A stretch of DNA of 64,000 bases from Rhizobium sp. 007 (GTDB lineage Bacteria > Pseudomonadota > Alphaproteobacteria > Rhizobiales > Rhizobiaceae): positions 4,037,001-4,101,000 of the forward strand of contig NZ_CP064187.1 in NCBI RefSeq assembly GCF_015353075.1, in the 5' to 3' direction. This document shows positions 4,804 through 63,853 of this stretch, piece after piece. A program made the translations under genes and the position numbers. The notes under the pieces are model-generated. The model was not told the DNA's origin, did not search any database, and saw only the letters and a list, made by a program, of their open reading frames with translations. The first letter of the stretch is position 1, and every line of letters starts with the position of its first letter.

Positions 4804-7254
4804 ATGGCGAAGGAATTACCGAAGACGGCGAAAGCTGTGGTCATCGGCGGCGGCATCATCGGTTGCTCGACGGCCTATCATTTGGGCAAGCTCGGCTGGA
4901 CGGATACGGTGCTGCTCGAGCGCAAGAAGCTCACCTCCGGCACCACCTTCCATGCGGCGGGCCTCGTCGGTCAGCTGCGTACCAGCGCCAACATCACCCA
5001 GCTGCTTGGCTATTCCGTTGATCTTTACAAAAAACTTGAAGCCGAAACCGGTCTCGGCACCGGCTGGAAAATGAACGGTGGATTGCGGCTTGCCTGCAAT
5101 GAAGAGCGCTGGACGGAGGTGAAGCGCCAGGCAACGACAGCGCAATCTTTCGGCCTCGACATGCGATTGCTCACTCCCCAGGAAGCCTTCGAACTCTGGC
5201 CGCTGATGACGATCGACGACCTTGTGGGCGCAGCCTATCTGCCGACCGACGGCCAGGCGAATCCTTCCGACATCACGCAGGCGCTGGCGAAAGGCGCCCG
5301 GATGTCCGGCATCTCGATCTTCGAGGATACGGAAGTTCTCGACCTGGAAATCGACAAAGGAAAGATCCGCGCCGTCATCACCGAAAAAGGCCGCATCGAA
5401 TGCGAACGCGTCATCGTCTGCGCCGGTCAGTGGACCCGGGCTTTCGCTGCTCGTTTCGGCGTCAACGTGCCGCTCGTCTCCGTCGAGCATCAGTACATCA
5501 TCACCGAATCCTTCGGCGTGCCTTCCAATCTGCCGACGCTGCGCGATCCGGATCGCCTCACCTACTACAAGGAAGAAGTTGGCGGGCTCGTCATGGGCGG
5601 CTATGAGCCAAATCCAATCCCCTGGGCGGTGAACGGCATTCCGGAAGGTTTCCATTACACGCTGCTCGACAGCAATTTCGATCACTTCGAGCAGATCATG
5701 GAGCAGGCGCTGGAGCGGGTTTCAGGCTTGCAGAAGGCGGGGGTCAAACAGCTCCTGAATGGACCGGAGAGTTTCACGCCGGATGGCAATTTCATTCTCG
5801 GCGAAGCGCCGGAGCTGAGGAATTTCTTCGTCGGCGCCGGGTTCAACGCTTTCGGCATAGCCTCGGGCGGCGGTGCCGGCATGGCGCTCGCCGAGTGGGT
5901 CGCCAAAGGTGAGCCGCCTTATGATCTCTGGCCGGTCGACATCCGCCGCTTCGGCCGCCCCCACTTCGATACCGACTGGGTGCGTACTCGCACGCTGGAG
6001 GCCTATGGCAAGCATTATACGATGGCTTGGCCTTTTGAAGAGCATTCGAGTGGTCGCCCCTGCCGCAAGTCGCCGCTTTACGATCGCCTCAAGGCTCAGG
6101 GCGCCTGCTTCGGCGAAAAGCTCGGCTGGGAGCGGCCGAACTGGTTCGCCGATCTCTTTGCCGACGAGGAGCCGAAGGACGTCTATACCTACGGCCGTCA
6201 GAACTGGTTCGATGCCGTCGGCCGCGAGCACAAGGCCGTGCGCGAAGCGGCTGTCATCTTCGATCAAACATCTTTTGCAAAGTTTGTTCTGAAGGGGAGG
6301 GATGCAGAGGCCGCGCTTTCGTGGATCGCCTCGAATGATGTCGCCAAGCCCGCCGGATCGCTCACCTACACGCAGATGCTGAACGACAAGGGCGGCATCG
6401 AATGCGACGTCACCGTCGCCCGCATCGCCGAGAACGAATTCTACATCGTTACCGGCACCGGCTTTGCCACTCACGATTTCGATTGGATCGCCCGCAATAT
6501 TCCGGCAGATATGCGGGCCGAGCTTGTCGATGTGACATCGGCCCATTCGGTTCTTTCCCTGATGGGGCCGAATTCCCGCGCTGTCCTTGAGAAAGTCACT
6601 ACCAGTGACGTGTCCAACGCCGCCTTTCCGTTCAGCCGGGTAAAGACCATCGGCATCGTCGGCTGCCCCGTCAGAGCTTTGCGGATCACCTATGTCGGCG
6701 AATTGGGCTATGAACTCCATGTCCCTGTCGAATATGCAACGACGGTCTATGATGCCTTGATGGCTGCCGGTAGTGGTTTCGGTCTCGTCAATGCCGGCTA
6801 CCGTGCCATCGAAAGCTGCCGTCTGGAGAAGGGCTATCGCGCCTGGGGTTCGGATATTGGCCCAGATCATACACCGATCGAGGCGGGGCTCGCCTGGGCA
6901 GTCAAAACGAAGAAGAACATCGACTTCCGTGGTCGCAAGGCGATCGAGCGCCAGCTTTCAGGCGGTGTGAAAAAGATGCTCGCTTGCGTCGTGCCGGACG
7001 ATCCGGAGACCGTCCTTCTCGGCCGCGAAACCATTTATCGGAATGGCAAACGTGTCGGCTGGCTTTCCAGCGGCGGCTTCGGCTACACGATCGGCAAACC
7101 GATCGGCTACGGCTATATCCGCAATCCCGACGGCGTGACCGAGGATTTCATGTTGTCGGGAACTTATGAACTGGACGTTGCGAGGGAGCGTATTCCCTGC
7201 ACGGTGTCGCTGAAGCCGCTCTATGACCCGGAGATGAAGCGCATCAAGGCTTAA
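4804..7254 (+). CDS. FAD-dependent dimethylglycine/sarcosine dehydrogenase-like protein with GcvT domain
   Basis: Large flavoenzyme, 816 residues, starting 1 bp after the kinase stop. The N-terminal FAD-binding DAO fold shows VIGGGIIG at residues 13-20 and the sequence TSGTTFHAAG; the His (residue 50) is at the place where dimethylglycine and sarcosine dehydrogenases bind FAD covalently. From about residue 400 onward a GcvT/aminomethyltransferase tetrahydrofolate-binding domain follows. Family members oxidatively demethylate N-methyl amino acids and pass the one-carbon unit to folate. In this operon it probably completes breakdown of the imported compound. Assignment to one exact substrate (dimethylglycine, sarcosine or another N-methyl amine) is not possible. 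Confidence 0.9.
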   Translation: MAKELPKTAKAVVIGGGIIGCSTAYHLGKLGWTDTVLLERKKLTSGTTFHAAGLVGQLRTSANITQLLGYSVDLYKKLEAETGLGTGWKMNGGLRLACNEERWTEVKRQATTAQSFGLDMRLLTPQEAFELWPLMTIDDLVGAAYLPTDGQANPSDITQALAKGARMSGISIFEDTEVLDLEIDKGKIRAVITEKGRIECERVIVCAGQWTRAFAARFGVNVPLVSVEHQYIITESFGVPSNLPTLRDPDRLTYYKEEVGGLVMGGYEPNPIPWAVNGIPEGFHYTLLDSNFDHFEQIMEQALERVSGLQKAGVKQLLNGPESFTPDGNFILGEAPELRNFFVGAGFNAFGIASGGGAGMALAEWVAKGEPPYDLWPVDIRRFGRPHFDTDWVRTRTLEAYGKHYTMAWPFEEHSSGRPCRKSPLYDRLKAQGACFGEKLGWERPNWFADLFADEEPKDVYTYGRQNWFDAVGREHKAVREAAVIFDQTSFAKFVLKGRDAEAALSWIASNDVAKPAGSLTYTQMLNDKGGIECDVTVARIAENEFYIVTGTGFATHDFDWIARNIPADMRAELVDVTSAHSVLSLMGPNSRAVLEKVTTSDVSNAAFPFSRVKTIGIVGCPVRALRITYVGELGYELHVPVEYATTVYDALMAAGSGFGLVNAGYRAIESCRLEKGYRAWGSDIGPDHTPIEAGLAWAVKTKKNIDFRGRKAIERQLSGGVKKMLACVVPDDPETVLLGRETIYRNGKRVGWLSSGGFGYTIGKPIGYGYIRNPDGVTEDFMLSGTYELDVARERIPCTVSLKPLYDPEMKRIKA

Positions 7255-60928: not shown

Positions 60929-61732
60929 ATGTCTGCACTTGAGAATTTCGCCGAAAATCTGCGGCGCCTCTGCCTTGCCAAGGCAGGCAGCATCAGCGCT
61001 GCCGCGCGCGGTATGCAAATCGGCCGCTCGCAGATTGAATCCTATCTTCAGGCGCGGCGCGCACCGGGCCGGGCCTCTGTAAAGAGGATCTGTGAATATC
61101 TCGGTGTGACCGAGGAAGAGATGTACCAGCGGCCGGTTGCGGTCGATTTGGACCACGGCCGTCCATCGGCGCAACGCATCTTGTCTGCGGCGAGGGATGC
61201 CCTGGAACCGCTCCTCTTTGCCGATCCTTCCGCCGGTATCGCACCCGGCATTTATCATGCCTACATGACGATCCCTGGTACGCCGGAGAGCCTACTTTGT
61301 GCCGTTGTTGTTATTGCCAAGCAGGGAAGCGCCACGACTTTCCGGCGACTTACCAATCGAGCGATCAAGAAGGGCGAATATTGGTCCCGCTTCACCGGCG
61401 ATCACAAAGGCATCGTCGTCGAGCGGCTCAATTGCCTTTCCTTCGTCGCAGCCAATCAGATTGGTACACAAGAGCCGACGCTGATGCGCCTTCGGTGGCT
61501 GCCATTCTCCGAGAAGCTGCTTGGAGGGCACGCCATGATTTTTACGCCTGCTGGACCGTCCTTCAGCGCCGTTGTGATGGTGCCGCTGAGCACGAAGATA
61601 AACCTCAGAACGGCGCTGCGCCTCGCGAAAGTCTACCGAACGGCCGATGAGGCCGTTCCGCGGATCGTACGGGACATGATTACCCAGCAGCGTGCCGATT
61701 TCATCTCTTCGGTCACACGCGATCTCGGTTAG
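60929..61732 (+). CDS. XRE-like HTH regulator with large C-terminal domain
   Basis: 267-residue protein. ATG 60929 (MSALENFAENLRRLCLAKAG) is preferred over an upstream TTG. The N-terminal 60 residues form an HTH: ISAAARGMQIGRSQIESYLQ, then ARRAPGRASVKRICEYLGVT. The C-terminal 180 residues (ALEPLLFADPSAGIAPGIYH, GEYWSRFTGDHKGIVVERLN) are not a domain I recognise; similar proteins exist in rhizobia as HTH proteins with phage-repressor-like N-termini. Its stop overlaps the convergent small gene. Confidence 0.82.
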   Translation: MSALENFAENLRRLCLAKAGSISAAARGMQIGRSQIESYLQARRAPGRASVKRICEYLGVTEEEMYQRPVAVDLDHGRPSAQRILSAARDALEPLLFADPSAGIAPGIYHAYMTIPGTPESLLCAVVVIAKQGSATTFRRLTNRAIKKGEYWSRFTGDHKGIVVERLNCLSFVAANQIGTQEPTLMRLRWLPFSEKLLGGHAMIFTPAGPSFSAVVMVPLSTKINLRTALRLAKVYRTADEAVPRIVRDMITQQRADFISSVTRDLG

Positions 61733-61947
61733 TTGAGCGACAGCCCGGCTTCATGGGTCGCGGGCGCGTGATCGACGTTGACGCGGTGCGCCTCGATCAG
61801 CGCCATTGACAAGAGGTAGGTCAGCATCGGCTGCCGGGCGCTGCGGCTTTGCGCGATCAGCGTGTTCAGCATGTCGATCGTATAGTCACCGACCCCGTCA
61901 TCCAAATTCAGCGTTTGTTCGGCTTGTGCAGTCTTTTTATGGGCCAT
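61729..61947 (-). CDS. Small conserved-type hypothetical protein
   Basis: 72-residue protein, largely helical (DYTIDMLNTLIAQSRSARQP, then MLTYLLSMALIEAHRV), starting MAHKKTAQAEQTL with GGAGAAAG upstream. No domain recognised. It is divergent from the peptide/SagB unit across 259 bp and overlaps the 3' end of the HTH gene by 4 bp. Any link to the peptide system is speculative. Confidence 0.7.
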   Translation of the reverse strand: MAHKKTAQAEQTLNLDDGVGDYTIDMLNTLIAQSRSARQPMLTYLLSMALIEAHRVNVDHAPATHEAGLSLN

Positions 61948-62114
61948 CGTGCTTTCTCCGGCGTCTTGTCGAGTTCATTCGCGCATTATGATTGGCATAG
62001 TTCACGTTTTTCGGCTAGATATTTCTGTATAAACACAAAAATAACGATTTTAATTCAGAAATTCCAGGATTTTGACTTAAATTGAAGCAATACGCCACTG
62101 TGATGTATCAAACT

Positions 62115-62139
62115 AATATTTGCGAATTAATCGAATATT
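62115..62139. promoter_or_regulatory. AT-rich imperfect palindrome upstream of the peptide gene
   Basis: AATATT (62115-62120) and AATATT (62134-62139) flank an ATTAAT core in a strongly AT-rich 259-bp divergent region (61948-62206). It could be an operator or promoter element for the 30-residue peptide gene or for the divergent small gene. No unambiguous -35/-10 pair was found. Confidence 0.35.
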
Positions 62140-62206
62140 TTCAGTTGGCGCCTCATTGTTCGGGCTGCGATCAACACCGATTGCTTTCGAACCGAGGAGA
62201 TGGAGC

Positions 62207-62299
62207 ATGCAGAAGAAGAGCAAGCCGAACCTTAAGGTTACCGCAGCCAAGGCTAAGCCGACTTTTGTCAGCCGCGGCATGATGTTCCGCATCGATTAA
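62207..62299 (+). CDS. 30-residue Lys-rich peptide, candidate RiPP precursor
   Basis: A 31-codon gene with a strong ribosome binding site (GAGGAG, 62194-62199, before ATG 62207). The peptide starts MQKKSKPNLKVTAAKAKP and ends TFVSRGMMFRID. It has six Lys, no Cys and no signal peptide. It is followed after 8 bp by a terminator and then by a SagB-type dehydrogenase on the same strand. Short K-P-x-x-V-x-R peptides beside SagB-like enzymes are, as far as I recall, known as putative RiPP precursors in proteobacteria. I infer that residues near T19-D30 are the modified core. It could also be a leader peptide. Confidence 0.7.
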   Translation: MQKKSKPNLKVTAAKAKPTFVSRGMMFRID

Positions 62300-62307
62300 G
62301 CGATGAG

Positions 62308-62344
62308 ATGCCTGCCGCGCGAATGAGTTGCGGCGGGCATTTTT
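62308..62344 (+). terminator. Terminator/attenuator between peptide gene and sagB-like gene
   Basis: ATGCCTGCCGC (62308-62318) pairs with GCGGCGGGCAT (62330-62340), an 11-bp stem with one G-U, then five T. It should make the peptide transcript much more abundant than the downstream enzyme. It also covers ATG 62308, making that an unlikely start for the enzyme. Confidence 0.85.
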
Positions 62345-62349
62345 CTGCG

Positions 62350-63393
62350 ATGCGCTATCGTTCCTCCCGCACGCTCGTCTTCCATAATGATGGTGCCGAG
62401 TTCGTAGCCTGTAATTTCCTCACCAAGGCTGTCTTCGAGTGCAGTCCGGACCTTCTGGATTTTTTGGGCGCTATTGCCGAGTGGAGTGATCGCGCCGCGA
62501 TCCGCGATCAAGCGCCCGGCCATAGTGAGGACGAACTCGATGAAACGCTTGTGGCGCTTGTCGAGATGTCCGCACTCGTCGTCGAAGGATCCGAACTTGA
62601 GATGCGAGAGGACGCCTTCCGTCAGCATTGGAAGTGGGGCGTGCCCGCCGCCCTGATGCATTTTTGCGTTCAGGACCCCGATTACATGTCCCTTAATGAG
62701 GCCGAAGATCTGCAGCGCGCTGCGCTCGCAAGCGATGGCGAGATCGAGCTCTACAGCCTCAATTCGGGGCAAGGCGATGTCATTTCGTTATCCGCCGAAC
62801 CCTCCGGAAATTCCTTGCTGGAGCTGATGGCGAGGCGGCGGACTCAACGCAAGGGCCTTACGAAAGCCGTGTCATTGCACGCGCTCTCCGAAGCGCTTTT
62901 CGCAGGCCTTGGGATTACAGGTACTGCACGAAATTCGGTGGTGACGCTGCCGCTGTCGATGACACCGTCCGGCGGCGCACGCAACCCTTATGAAGCCTAT
63001 GTTTTTGTGAAGGCGGTCGACGGGCTGGCGCCAGGAATCTATCACTATTCGGCCTTCGAGCATTCGCTGGCAAAGATATCGGACGCTTCGCCCTCTTTCG
63101 GCGATCTGGTGGGCGGCCAGGAGTGGGCGGATACCATGCCCTGCATGATCGTACTCGTTGCCCATATGGACCGCAGCATGTGGAAATATAGCGATGCCAA
63201 CGCCTACCGCGTGGTTTTGATCGAGGCCGGGCACATTGGGCAAAACATCATGCTTTCGGCCACGGCGCACGGCATGACGGCTTGCCCAACCGCGGCTCTG
63301 AGCCATACGCGGATAGGCGAATTGGTTGGTCTGCGCAATCCTGCTCATGCGCCGATCTACGCACTGACGCTTGGTTTCCCTGACGTAGCGTAA
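62350..63393 (+). CDS. SagB/ThcOx family FMN-dependent dehydrogenase
   Basis: 347-residue nitroreductase-fold protein. ATG 62350 (MRYRSSRTLVFHNDGAEF) is preferred; an earlier ATG at 62308 lies in the terminator. An N-terminal region of about 155 residues with QHWKWG (92-97) precedes the flavin domain: ARRRTQRKG (161-169, FMN phosphate contact), LSMTPSGGARNPYEAYVFVK (202-221), GLAPGIYHYSAFEHSL (225-240) and GHIGQNIMLSATAHGM (294-309). These are the SagB-type blocks. SagB enzymes oxidise azolines to azoles in thiazole/oxazole peptides, but the neighbouring peptide has no Cys and no cyclodehydratase is nearby, so a different oxidation is likely. Confidence 0.88.
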   Translation: MRYRSSRTLVFHNDGAEFVACNFLTKAVFECSPDLLDFLGAIAEWSDRAAIRDQAPGHSEDELDETLVALVEMSALVVEGSELEMREDAFRQHWKWGVPAALMHFCVQDPDYMSLNEAEDLQRAALASDGEIELYSLNSGQGDVISLSAEPSGNSLLELMARRRTQRKGLTKAVSLHALSEALFAGLGITGTARNSVVTLPLSMTPSGGARNPYEAYVFVKAVDGLAPGIYHYSAFEHSLAKISDASPSFGDLVGGQEWADTMPCMIVLVAHMDRSMWKYSDANAYRVVLIEAGHIGQNIMLSATAHGMTACPTAALSHTRIGELVGLRNPAHAPIYALTLGFPDVA

Positions 63394-63496: not shown

Positions 63497-63853
63497 GTGC
63501 CTGATCCCGTAGATATCCTCGTCGGTCGCAATGTCAGACAGCTCCGCGCCCGCCGCCGTGTCTCGCAACTGGAGCTGGGGGAAGCTCTTGGTTTGACGTT
63601 CCAGCAAATTCAGAAATACGAAAAAGGCACCAACCGGGTCTCCGCCAGCAAGTTGCACCAGATCGCGGTCTTTCTTGGCGTTGAGATCTCCGCACTCTTT
63701 GAAGGCGCGGAAACGTCGCAATTCCCGTCAAAAGTTGCGCTAAGCCCCGAGGCTTATGAACTGGCTGTCAATTATGACAGGCTTCACTCGCCCGCGGGCA
63801 AGGAAGCGGTCAAAACCATTCTGACGCTGATGAGCGCGGAAAAGGCTGCCTGA
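63497..63853 (+). CDS. XRE family transcriptional regulator
   Basis: 118-residue HTH regulator. GTG 63497 has GAGGGA about 8 bp upstream. The HTH is VGRNVRQLRARRRVSQLELG, then EALGLTFQQIQKYEKGTNRV, a form very common in rhizobia. The C-terminal tail (LSPEAYELAVNYDRLHSPAG) may act in dimer formation. It lies 103 bp after the SagB-like gene on the same strand and could regulate it, but its own upstream region may hold a separate promoter. Confidence 0.9.
   Translation: MPDPVDILVGRNVRQLRARRRVSQLELGEALGLTFQQIQKYEKGTNRVSASKLHQIAVFLGVEISALFEGAETSQFPSKVALSPEAYELAVNYDRLHSPAGKEAVKTILTLMSAEKAA

Follow-up and report, generated by a model that had tools for sequence, protein, structure and literature searches.

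A 64,000-nucleotide stretch of the Rhizobium sp. 007 genome (contig NZ_CP064187.1, positions 4,037,001–4,101,000; hereafter the window, placed on a 4.3-Mb contig of a 7.6-Mb genome) encodes a 30-residue peptide followed by a SagB/ThcOx-type flavin oxidase, and this pair is real, conserved and genetically coupled. The reading that we favor, with moderate confidence, is that the peptide is the precursor of a ribosomally synthesized and post-translationally modified peptide (RiPP) and that the SagB-type protein is a stand-alone, leader-guided oxidase desaturating an aromatic residue in its core. The unit looks like a very small form of the oxidase-dependent RiPP systems that lack a YcaO cyclodehydratase, and a variant not previously studied. 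Its elements are the following (RRE, RiPP-recognition element):

62207–62299, + strand: candidate precursor peptide, 30 aa, an ATG open reading frame (ORF) recognized by its conserved tail, constraint and profile matches
62194–62199, + strand: Shine-Dalgarno sequence GAGGAG, 7 nt 5' of the peptide ATG
61948–62206, no strand: AT-rich intergenic region between divergent genes, with presumed promoters and conserved blocks in an alignment of five Rhizobium-type loci
62305–62343, + strand: GC-rich hairpin whose 3' foot carries a T run, supported by folding, shuffles and paired changes in relatives
62350–63393, + strand: SagB/ThcOx-type oxidase with an RRE-like N-terminal domain (residues ~1–80), a nitroreductase domain (~150–345) and W278-K279-Y280

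To trace the pair, genome contigs were scanned with a five-protein SagB alignment and the best 80 of 195 confirmed relatives were taken, a locus set weighted toward Mesorhizobium in which 32 peptides end GMHYNKR. A first-pass annotation of this DNA had named beforehand two outcomes that would speak against the pairing, lack of conservation beside SagB homologues and unconstrained nonsynonymous drift, and neither is what we find. A small peptide ORF lies just upstream of SagB in 70 of the 80 loci, 65 with a single tail and five of a repeat type; the count comprises 69 found by rule, less the spurious L095, plus L053 and L054 added by reading. Seven loci show no peptide (L074, L078, L084, L090, L091, L095 and L097, the last covered only partly upstream and matching only from residue 155), and L087 breaks off within the enzyme gene. 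The upstream sequence of L085 and L089 is 200 bases long at most; a leader is visible in the former and repeats in the latter, but neither was counted. With the window, L004 and L153 added, 62 of the 73 collected peptides are distinct.

In the 76 loci whose SagB match is preceded by 450 nt or more (four were excluded for length), a loose tail rule was matched by 62 of 76 upstream intervals versus 12 of 1413 controls and a strict rule by 53 of 76 versus 0 of 1413, with rules that were set after the peptides had been seen and loci whose relatedness makes them non-independent. A profile built from 19 peptides and run on 179 whole genomes gave six matches. The five with values of 1.2e-8 or lower are on the same strand as SagB and end no more than 80 bases upstream of it; the sixth (0.009) has two internal stop codons and was taken as chance. 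At least one SagB genome was missed, G042, whose peptide ends VCLNKA. At the codon level, the last 16 codons of the window peptide and four Rhizobium-type relatives contain no nonsynonymous differences and 1–6 synonymous ones per pair (10 pairs), and 29 distinct Mesorhizobium-type DNAs give a nonsynonymous to synonymous ratio (pN/pS) of 0.24 overall and 0.19 over the last 14 codons: the peptide tail is under purifying selection.

Locus L106 (genome G221) has a 28-aa ORF in the peptide's place, −147 to −61 from SagB (MKKLSLNIAKSDVRKAGIVNVSLQYRNS, ending VSLQYRNS), that is off the tail rule. The peptide-less L091, from a Pedobacter metagenome-assembled genome, has a 61-aa ORF at −244 to −59 with an internal GG and the ending YDINIYSCN, which may be another precursor type. 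In the sole annotated record examined, a Roseateles sp. XES5 plasmid module, the gene table, known to be incomplete, lists no peptide coding sequence.

The 30-residue ORF and its strong ribosome-binding site stand as first annotated. We propose that the full peptide, MQKKSKPNLKVTAAKAKPTFVSRGMMFRID, divides into a leader, MQKKSKPNLKVTAAKAKPTFVSR, and the core GMMFRID. A TFVSRG-type core had been expected; the most conserved part is instead F-x-x-x-G-[ML]-x-[FY]-x-K, found at the extreme C-terminus of the peptides of the 65 single-tail loci. With the aromatic or Leu residue as position 0, the 57 distinct single-tail peptides have Tyr or Phe there in 54 cases and Leu in three. Position −3 is Gly in 51 of them, position −7 is Phe in 43, position −2 is Met in 37 and position +2 is Lys in 47. 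Cys is absent from the whole window peptide, as had been noted, and its GMMFRID tail has neither Ser nor Thr; Cys occurs in five of the 57. In five Caulobacteraceae-type loci the ORF is longer and encodes a leader segment (D-L-G-I, for example) together with two to five tandem R-[MI]-x-[FWY] repeats, and a further genome (L137) is of the same kind:

L077: five repeats of the RIVFSTGSASAAQ type, in the same place as in L138
L081: four repeats of RIVFATGSA
L083: three repeats of RMLWATGSA
L088: three repeats of the RMPYAAVG type
L093: two repeats of RMPYC
L137: four repeats of the RMPYAAGAMDLRATKT type

Single tails and repeats have [GR]-[MLI]-x-[FYW] in common. In the leader, a segment [LI]-x-[VI] is present in 26 of 35 representatives versus 11.8 expected on shuffling, for a motif chosen after the peptides had been seen and with L093 entered shortened.

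The identification of the second gene as a SagB/ThcOx flavin dehydrogenase is borne out by matches to TIGR03605 at 103 bits (cut-off 78.4) and PF00881 at 63.4 (cut-off 23.5), and all 36 aligned relatives match TIGR03605 at E 0.001 or better. The mechanically called 361-aa ORF, in which PF00881 is the only Pfam domain and a fusion of MNIO to the nitroreductase is absent, starts at 62308 within the hairpin; because relatives align from the ATG at 62350, the enzyme probably starts there and is 347 aa long. It is 98% identical to SagB of Rhizobium mongolense USDA 1844. Residues W278, K279 and Y280 are invariant in all 36 relatives and align with the W-K-Y of ThcOx, whose Lys we take to have an active-site role. 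Such a role has been proposed for the Tyr in BmdC (PMC8795117). This nonribosomal peptide synthetase (NRPS) oxidase is the best full-length structural match of the enzyme model, and the modeled N-terminus, strands followed by three helices, aligns with the BmdC N-terminal domain, which has been called RRE-like and is thought to be a relic of a RiPP-recognition element (PMC8795117). The RRE-like assignment in our enzyme is based on this fold, since no RRE or PqqD model matched it in the Pfam search; no PqqD or RRE chain appears in the structure-match lists either, but these were filled by one domain and are thus uninformative on this point.

Two neighboring genes accompany the pair (HTH, helix-turn-helix):

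60929–61732, + strand: putative regulator with an N-terminal XRE-type HTH (PF13560 above cut-off) and a C-terminal eight-stranded barrel of lipocalin-like shape
61729–61947, − strand: 72-aa small-family protein with the pattern Y..DML..L...A.....L.YLL.MA..EA

The first-pass annotation described a compact two-gene unit; the pairing holds, the limit to two genes does not, as the regulator and the 72-aa gene are co-conserved. By profile count the regulator is present in 63 of the 80 loci and 63 of the 65 single-tail loci. Its model (pLDDT 86.9, pTM 0.63) matched known structures over the HTH (1–70) and the barrel (97–220), the latter mainly designed barrels and, weakly, lipocalins. The 72-aa family, with a single match in the window's own genome, is often a small helical protein near the unit: the 80 loci hold 37 such ORFs, of which 10 are upstream on the minus strand and the other 27, on the plus strand, directly follow SagB. 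The intergenic region at 61948–62206 has a mean column identity of 90% in the five-locus alignment. A promoter scan of the window gave one site versus 1.7 expected, and an Rfam search found only a signal recognition particle RNA and a tRNA, both elsewhere in the window.

Some neighbors vary among loci. In L138 and L141 a cytochrome P450 gene, recognized by Pfam, precedes the genes for the repeat precursor and the oxidase, with a similar ORF in L081 by eye, and a CHASE2 histidine kinase gene lies upstream in L137 and L138, hinting at further modification or signaling. On contig C55 of genome G397 (L189, 13274–14628), a regulator and peptide lacking SagB adjoin a DUF5939-guanylate cyclase gene, possibly an orphan or decayed unit. 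At 5231–5554 of L190 (G171), a regulator paralogue lies near an ORF ending MKKTYQKPVLVKRDRLSAIAAVACPISHPCG, an ending that resembles lasso-type leaders; the regulator family may therefore serve several peptide systems. In the window, an XRE-type HTH gene at 63497–63853 is kept downstream of SagB in R. mongolense relatives, and its membership of the unit is unsupported. We rejected a defense-system reading: PADLOC gave no match for SagB, the regulator or the 72-aa protein, and the models hit by the HTH protein downstream are of regulator type.

The steps that we propose are as follows. The winged-helix RRE-like domain would bind a strand-forming leader segment (N-L-K-V here, D-L-G-I in most Caulobacteraceae-type precursors) and so present the C-terminal core to FMN, where the Trp-Lys-Tyr site would take hydrogen from the conserved aromatic residue of [GR]-[MLI]-x-[FYW]. 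The predicted product is an α,β-dehydro-Phe, -Tyr or -Trp, each core becoming 2 Da lighter. The hairpin might hold precursor output above enzyme output, and the HTH-barrel protein would regulate the unit, perhaps by sensing the product.

Several observations weigh against this scheme. The RRE-like domain matches no RRE or PqqD model, the strand motif, itself chosen post hoc, is missing from nine of 35 representative leaders, and three of the 57 distinct tails have Leu at the key position. Genome G397 has a regulator and a tail peptide (GMHYRPE), no adjacent SagB and no SagB match at E 1e-40. The regulator family also occurs without this SagB (66 of 397 genomes versus 13 of 397 for SagB), as does the 72-aa family (in 34 of 100 Rhizobium genomes). 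The scheme does not account for maturation or export: leaving SagB and the regulator aside, most of the larger homology clusters in the surrounding 6 kb are specific to Mesorhizobium. Finally, SagB relatives at ~35–39% identity serve NRPS-type clusters.

The same precursor and enzyme might instead carry out another oxidation, for example one of Met, His or Lys, one of the C-terminal end of the peptide, or one that cross-links core side chains, which we regard as possible though rather unlikely. Conservation of the entire tail G-M-x-Y-N-K, and not of the aromatic alone, speaks for such a reaction, and the three Leu-bearing peptides and the P450 genes of L138 and L141, with the similar ORF of L081, point the same way. 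The aromatic residue, however, is common to single-tail and repeat peptides while its flanks differ (RMPYA, RIVFS, RMLWA), and the closest experimental precedent desaturates Phe.

The hairpin bears on a second alternative. Its core stem spans 62308–62340, with five T at 62340–62344, and it folds at −29.2 kcal/mol (z −4.55), a stability equaled by none of 200 shuffles. Among five relatives, three pairs are changed on both sides, a number reached by 10 of 500 shuffles; a slide of +3 gives two. Of the intrinsic terminator first annotated after the peptide, the stable hairpin and T run stand, but a simple terminator scan did not list the structure; we propose that it is a leaky terminator or a 3'-end stabilizer. 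Spacers between peptide and SagB fold at z < −2 in 30 of the 39 folded. Such an arrangement, a short ORF with a conserved C-terminal end and a hairpin before an enzyme gene whose ATG at 62350 has no obvious Shine-Dalgarno sequence of its own, would also suit a regulatory leader peptide whose translation, or ribosome stalling on it, controls the hairpin and hence SagB expression, the peptide not being a substrate. We consider this improbable: precursors of the Caulobacteraceae type are long and made of repeats, spacer folding is no stronger than z −1.2 in L081, L083, L088 and L093 (−2.0 in L077), and the enzyme has a peptide-recognition-like domain.

A third alternative is that SagB tailors a small molecule or a nonribosomal peptide beside an unrelated small ORF. 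Relatives at ~35–39% identity do have NRPS-type or phosphopantetheinyl transferase genes as neighbors on conjugative plasmids of Sinorhizobium medicae (L154, L157), and it is an NRPS oxidase, BmdC, that the enzyme model matches best over its full length. On a SagB tree of 54 rows, made by a quick method with SH-aLRT support only, one branch (99) separates the 35 single-tail rows from the rest, and another (100) does so for seven repeat rows; NRPS-linked, TIGR04511 and peptide-less rows, together with the truncated repeat row L089, lie outside both peptide clades. L154, the sole such plasmid relative on the tree, is thus outside them, and with the peptide staying beside SagB, under constraint, across 65 single-tail loci, we judge this alternative very improbable.

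No YcaO gene adjoins the unit, as first annotated, and the genome's two (G000, 445508–446449 and 1039204–1040136) are on another contig, C2. PF02624 (YcaO) is absent from 12 of the 19 SagB-bearing genomes searched, including six of the 11 of known high quality (one of the six being G221, whose peptide departs from the tail rule), and the other seven genomes have eight matches, all on other contigs or >1.7 Mb from SagB. The SagB-type enzyme can therefore act without cyclodehydration, and azole chemistry is unlikely. That SagB makes azoles in trans with a YcaO protein encoded elsewhere, for which the two C2 genes and the presence of at least one YcaO gene in seven of 19 genomes could speak, was rejected as the principal explanation and is the least probable of all, given the YcaO-free genomes, the distances in the remainder, a window peptide without Cys and the rarity of Cys in other single tails.

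The unit occurs sporadically and is therefore accessory: SagB was found at E 1e-40 in 13 of 397 genomes of the order, and a SagB match in seven of 149 genomes of Caulobacteraceae (the family of G1051), six of them already known loci. A class-wide search gave only more distant SagB relatives, in 11 of 385 genomes including the window's own; in the 12 further loci that it supplied no tail peptide was seen, the wrong ORF having been taken as the enzyme in several (L117, L119, L121–L124). More tentatively, the pair may define a new RiPP class, a short precursor with an RRE-fused flavoenzyme making dehydro-aromatics, with one core in Hyphomicrobiales and several in Caulobacteraceae. Its product would then be an internal signal, detected by the regulator through its lipocalin-like barrel, and not an exported antibiotic; we hold this broader proposal doubtful.

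Among known systems, the linear azol(in)e peptides (SagB, McbC, ThcOx) involve the same oxidase fold, with W-K-Y common with ThcOx, but the window unit has no adjacent cyclodehydratase and no Cys/Ser/Thr-rich core. Cyclodipeptide oxidases, again of this fold, are reported to catalyze α,β-dehydrogenation and to consume aromatic substrates well; unlike our enzyme as proposed, they (AlbAB) are filamentous and act on diketopiperazines with no known leader recognition. TIGR04511 ('putative peptide maturation dehydrogenase') is SagB-related and the nearest NCBIfam model besides TIGR03605; membership was rejected, as the window enzyme, at 140.6 bits, falls short of the cut-off (240) and the four true members form a separate clade, three with TPR-like ORFs upstream by eye and one, L111, with an opposite-strand ORF for a longer leader-like peptide (by eye). 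BmdC has the same two-domain architecture with an N-terminal RRE-like domain, but acts on a carrier-bound thiazoline (PMC8795117), whereas the window enzyme has a candidate peptide partner. The closest likeness is to PflA/PflD of Pseudomonas, a RiPP precursor and nitroreductase-type domain without YcaO in which, according to a preprint, the nitroreductase domain of PflD converts a Phe near the precursor C-terminus into Z-dehydro-Phe (PMC12636437). PflD is fused to MNIO and works beside an HEXXH enzyme; our enzyme stands alone with its own RRE-like domain, and its precursors are of ~30 aa or multi-core. The preprint also calls YcaO-free nitroreductases rare and uncharacterized and suggests that others could make dehydroamino acids (PMC12636437), and a related cluster in Pseudomonas Os17 includes a protein with a 'SagB-type dehydrogenase domain' (PMC7726476).

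The chemistry had been anticipated to be new or little studied. A literature search conducted mostly without subscription journals returned no paper on this peptide-SagB family; the expectation needs narrowing in that YcaO-free RiPP nitroreductase chemistry has one published case, in a preprint (PMC12636437). To the question of what a SagB-type oxidase does without a cyclodehydratase, the fused enzyme of that 2025 preprint is the one answer we found. The family described here is a minimal test system of one enzyme and a peptide of 30 aa, in which both the residue targeted (Phe, Tyr, Trp or Leu) and the number of cores vary naturally. If desaturation is the true reaction, the enzyme would be a compact biocatalyst for dehydro-aromatic residues, and its products would be a class that lies hidden in bacteria common in soil and in legume nodules.
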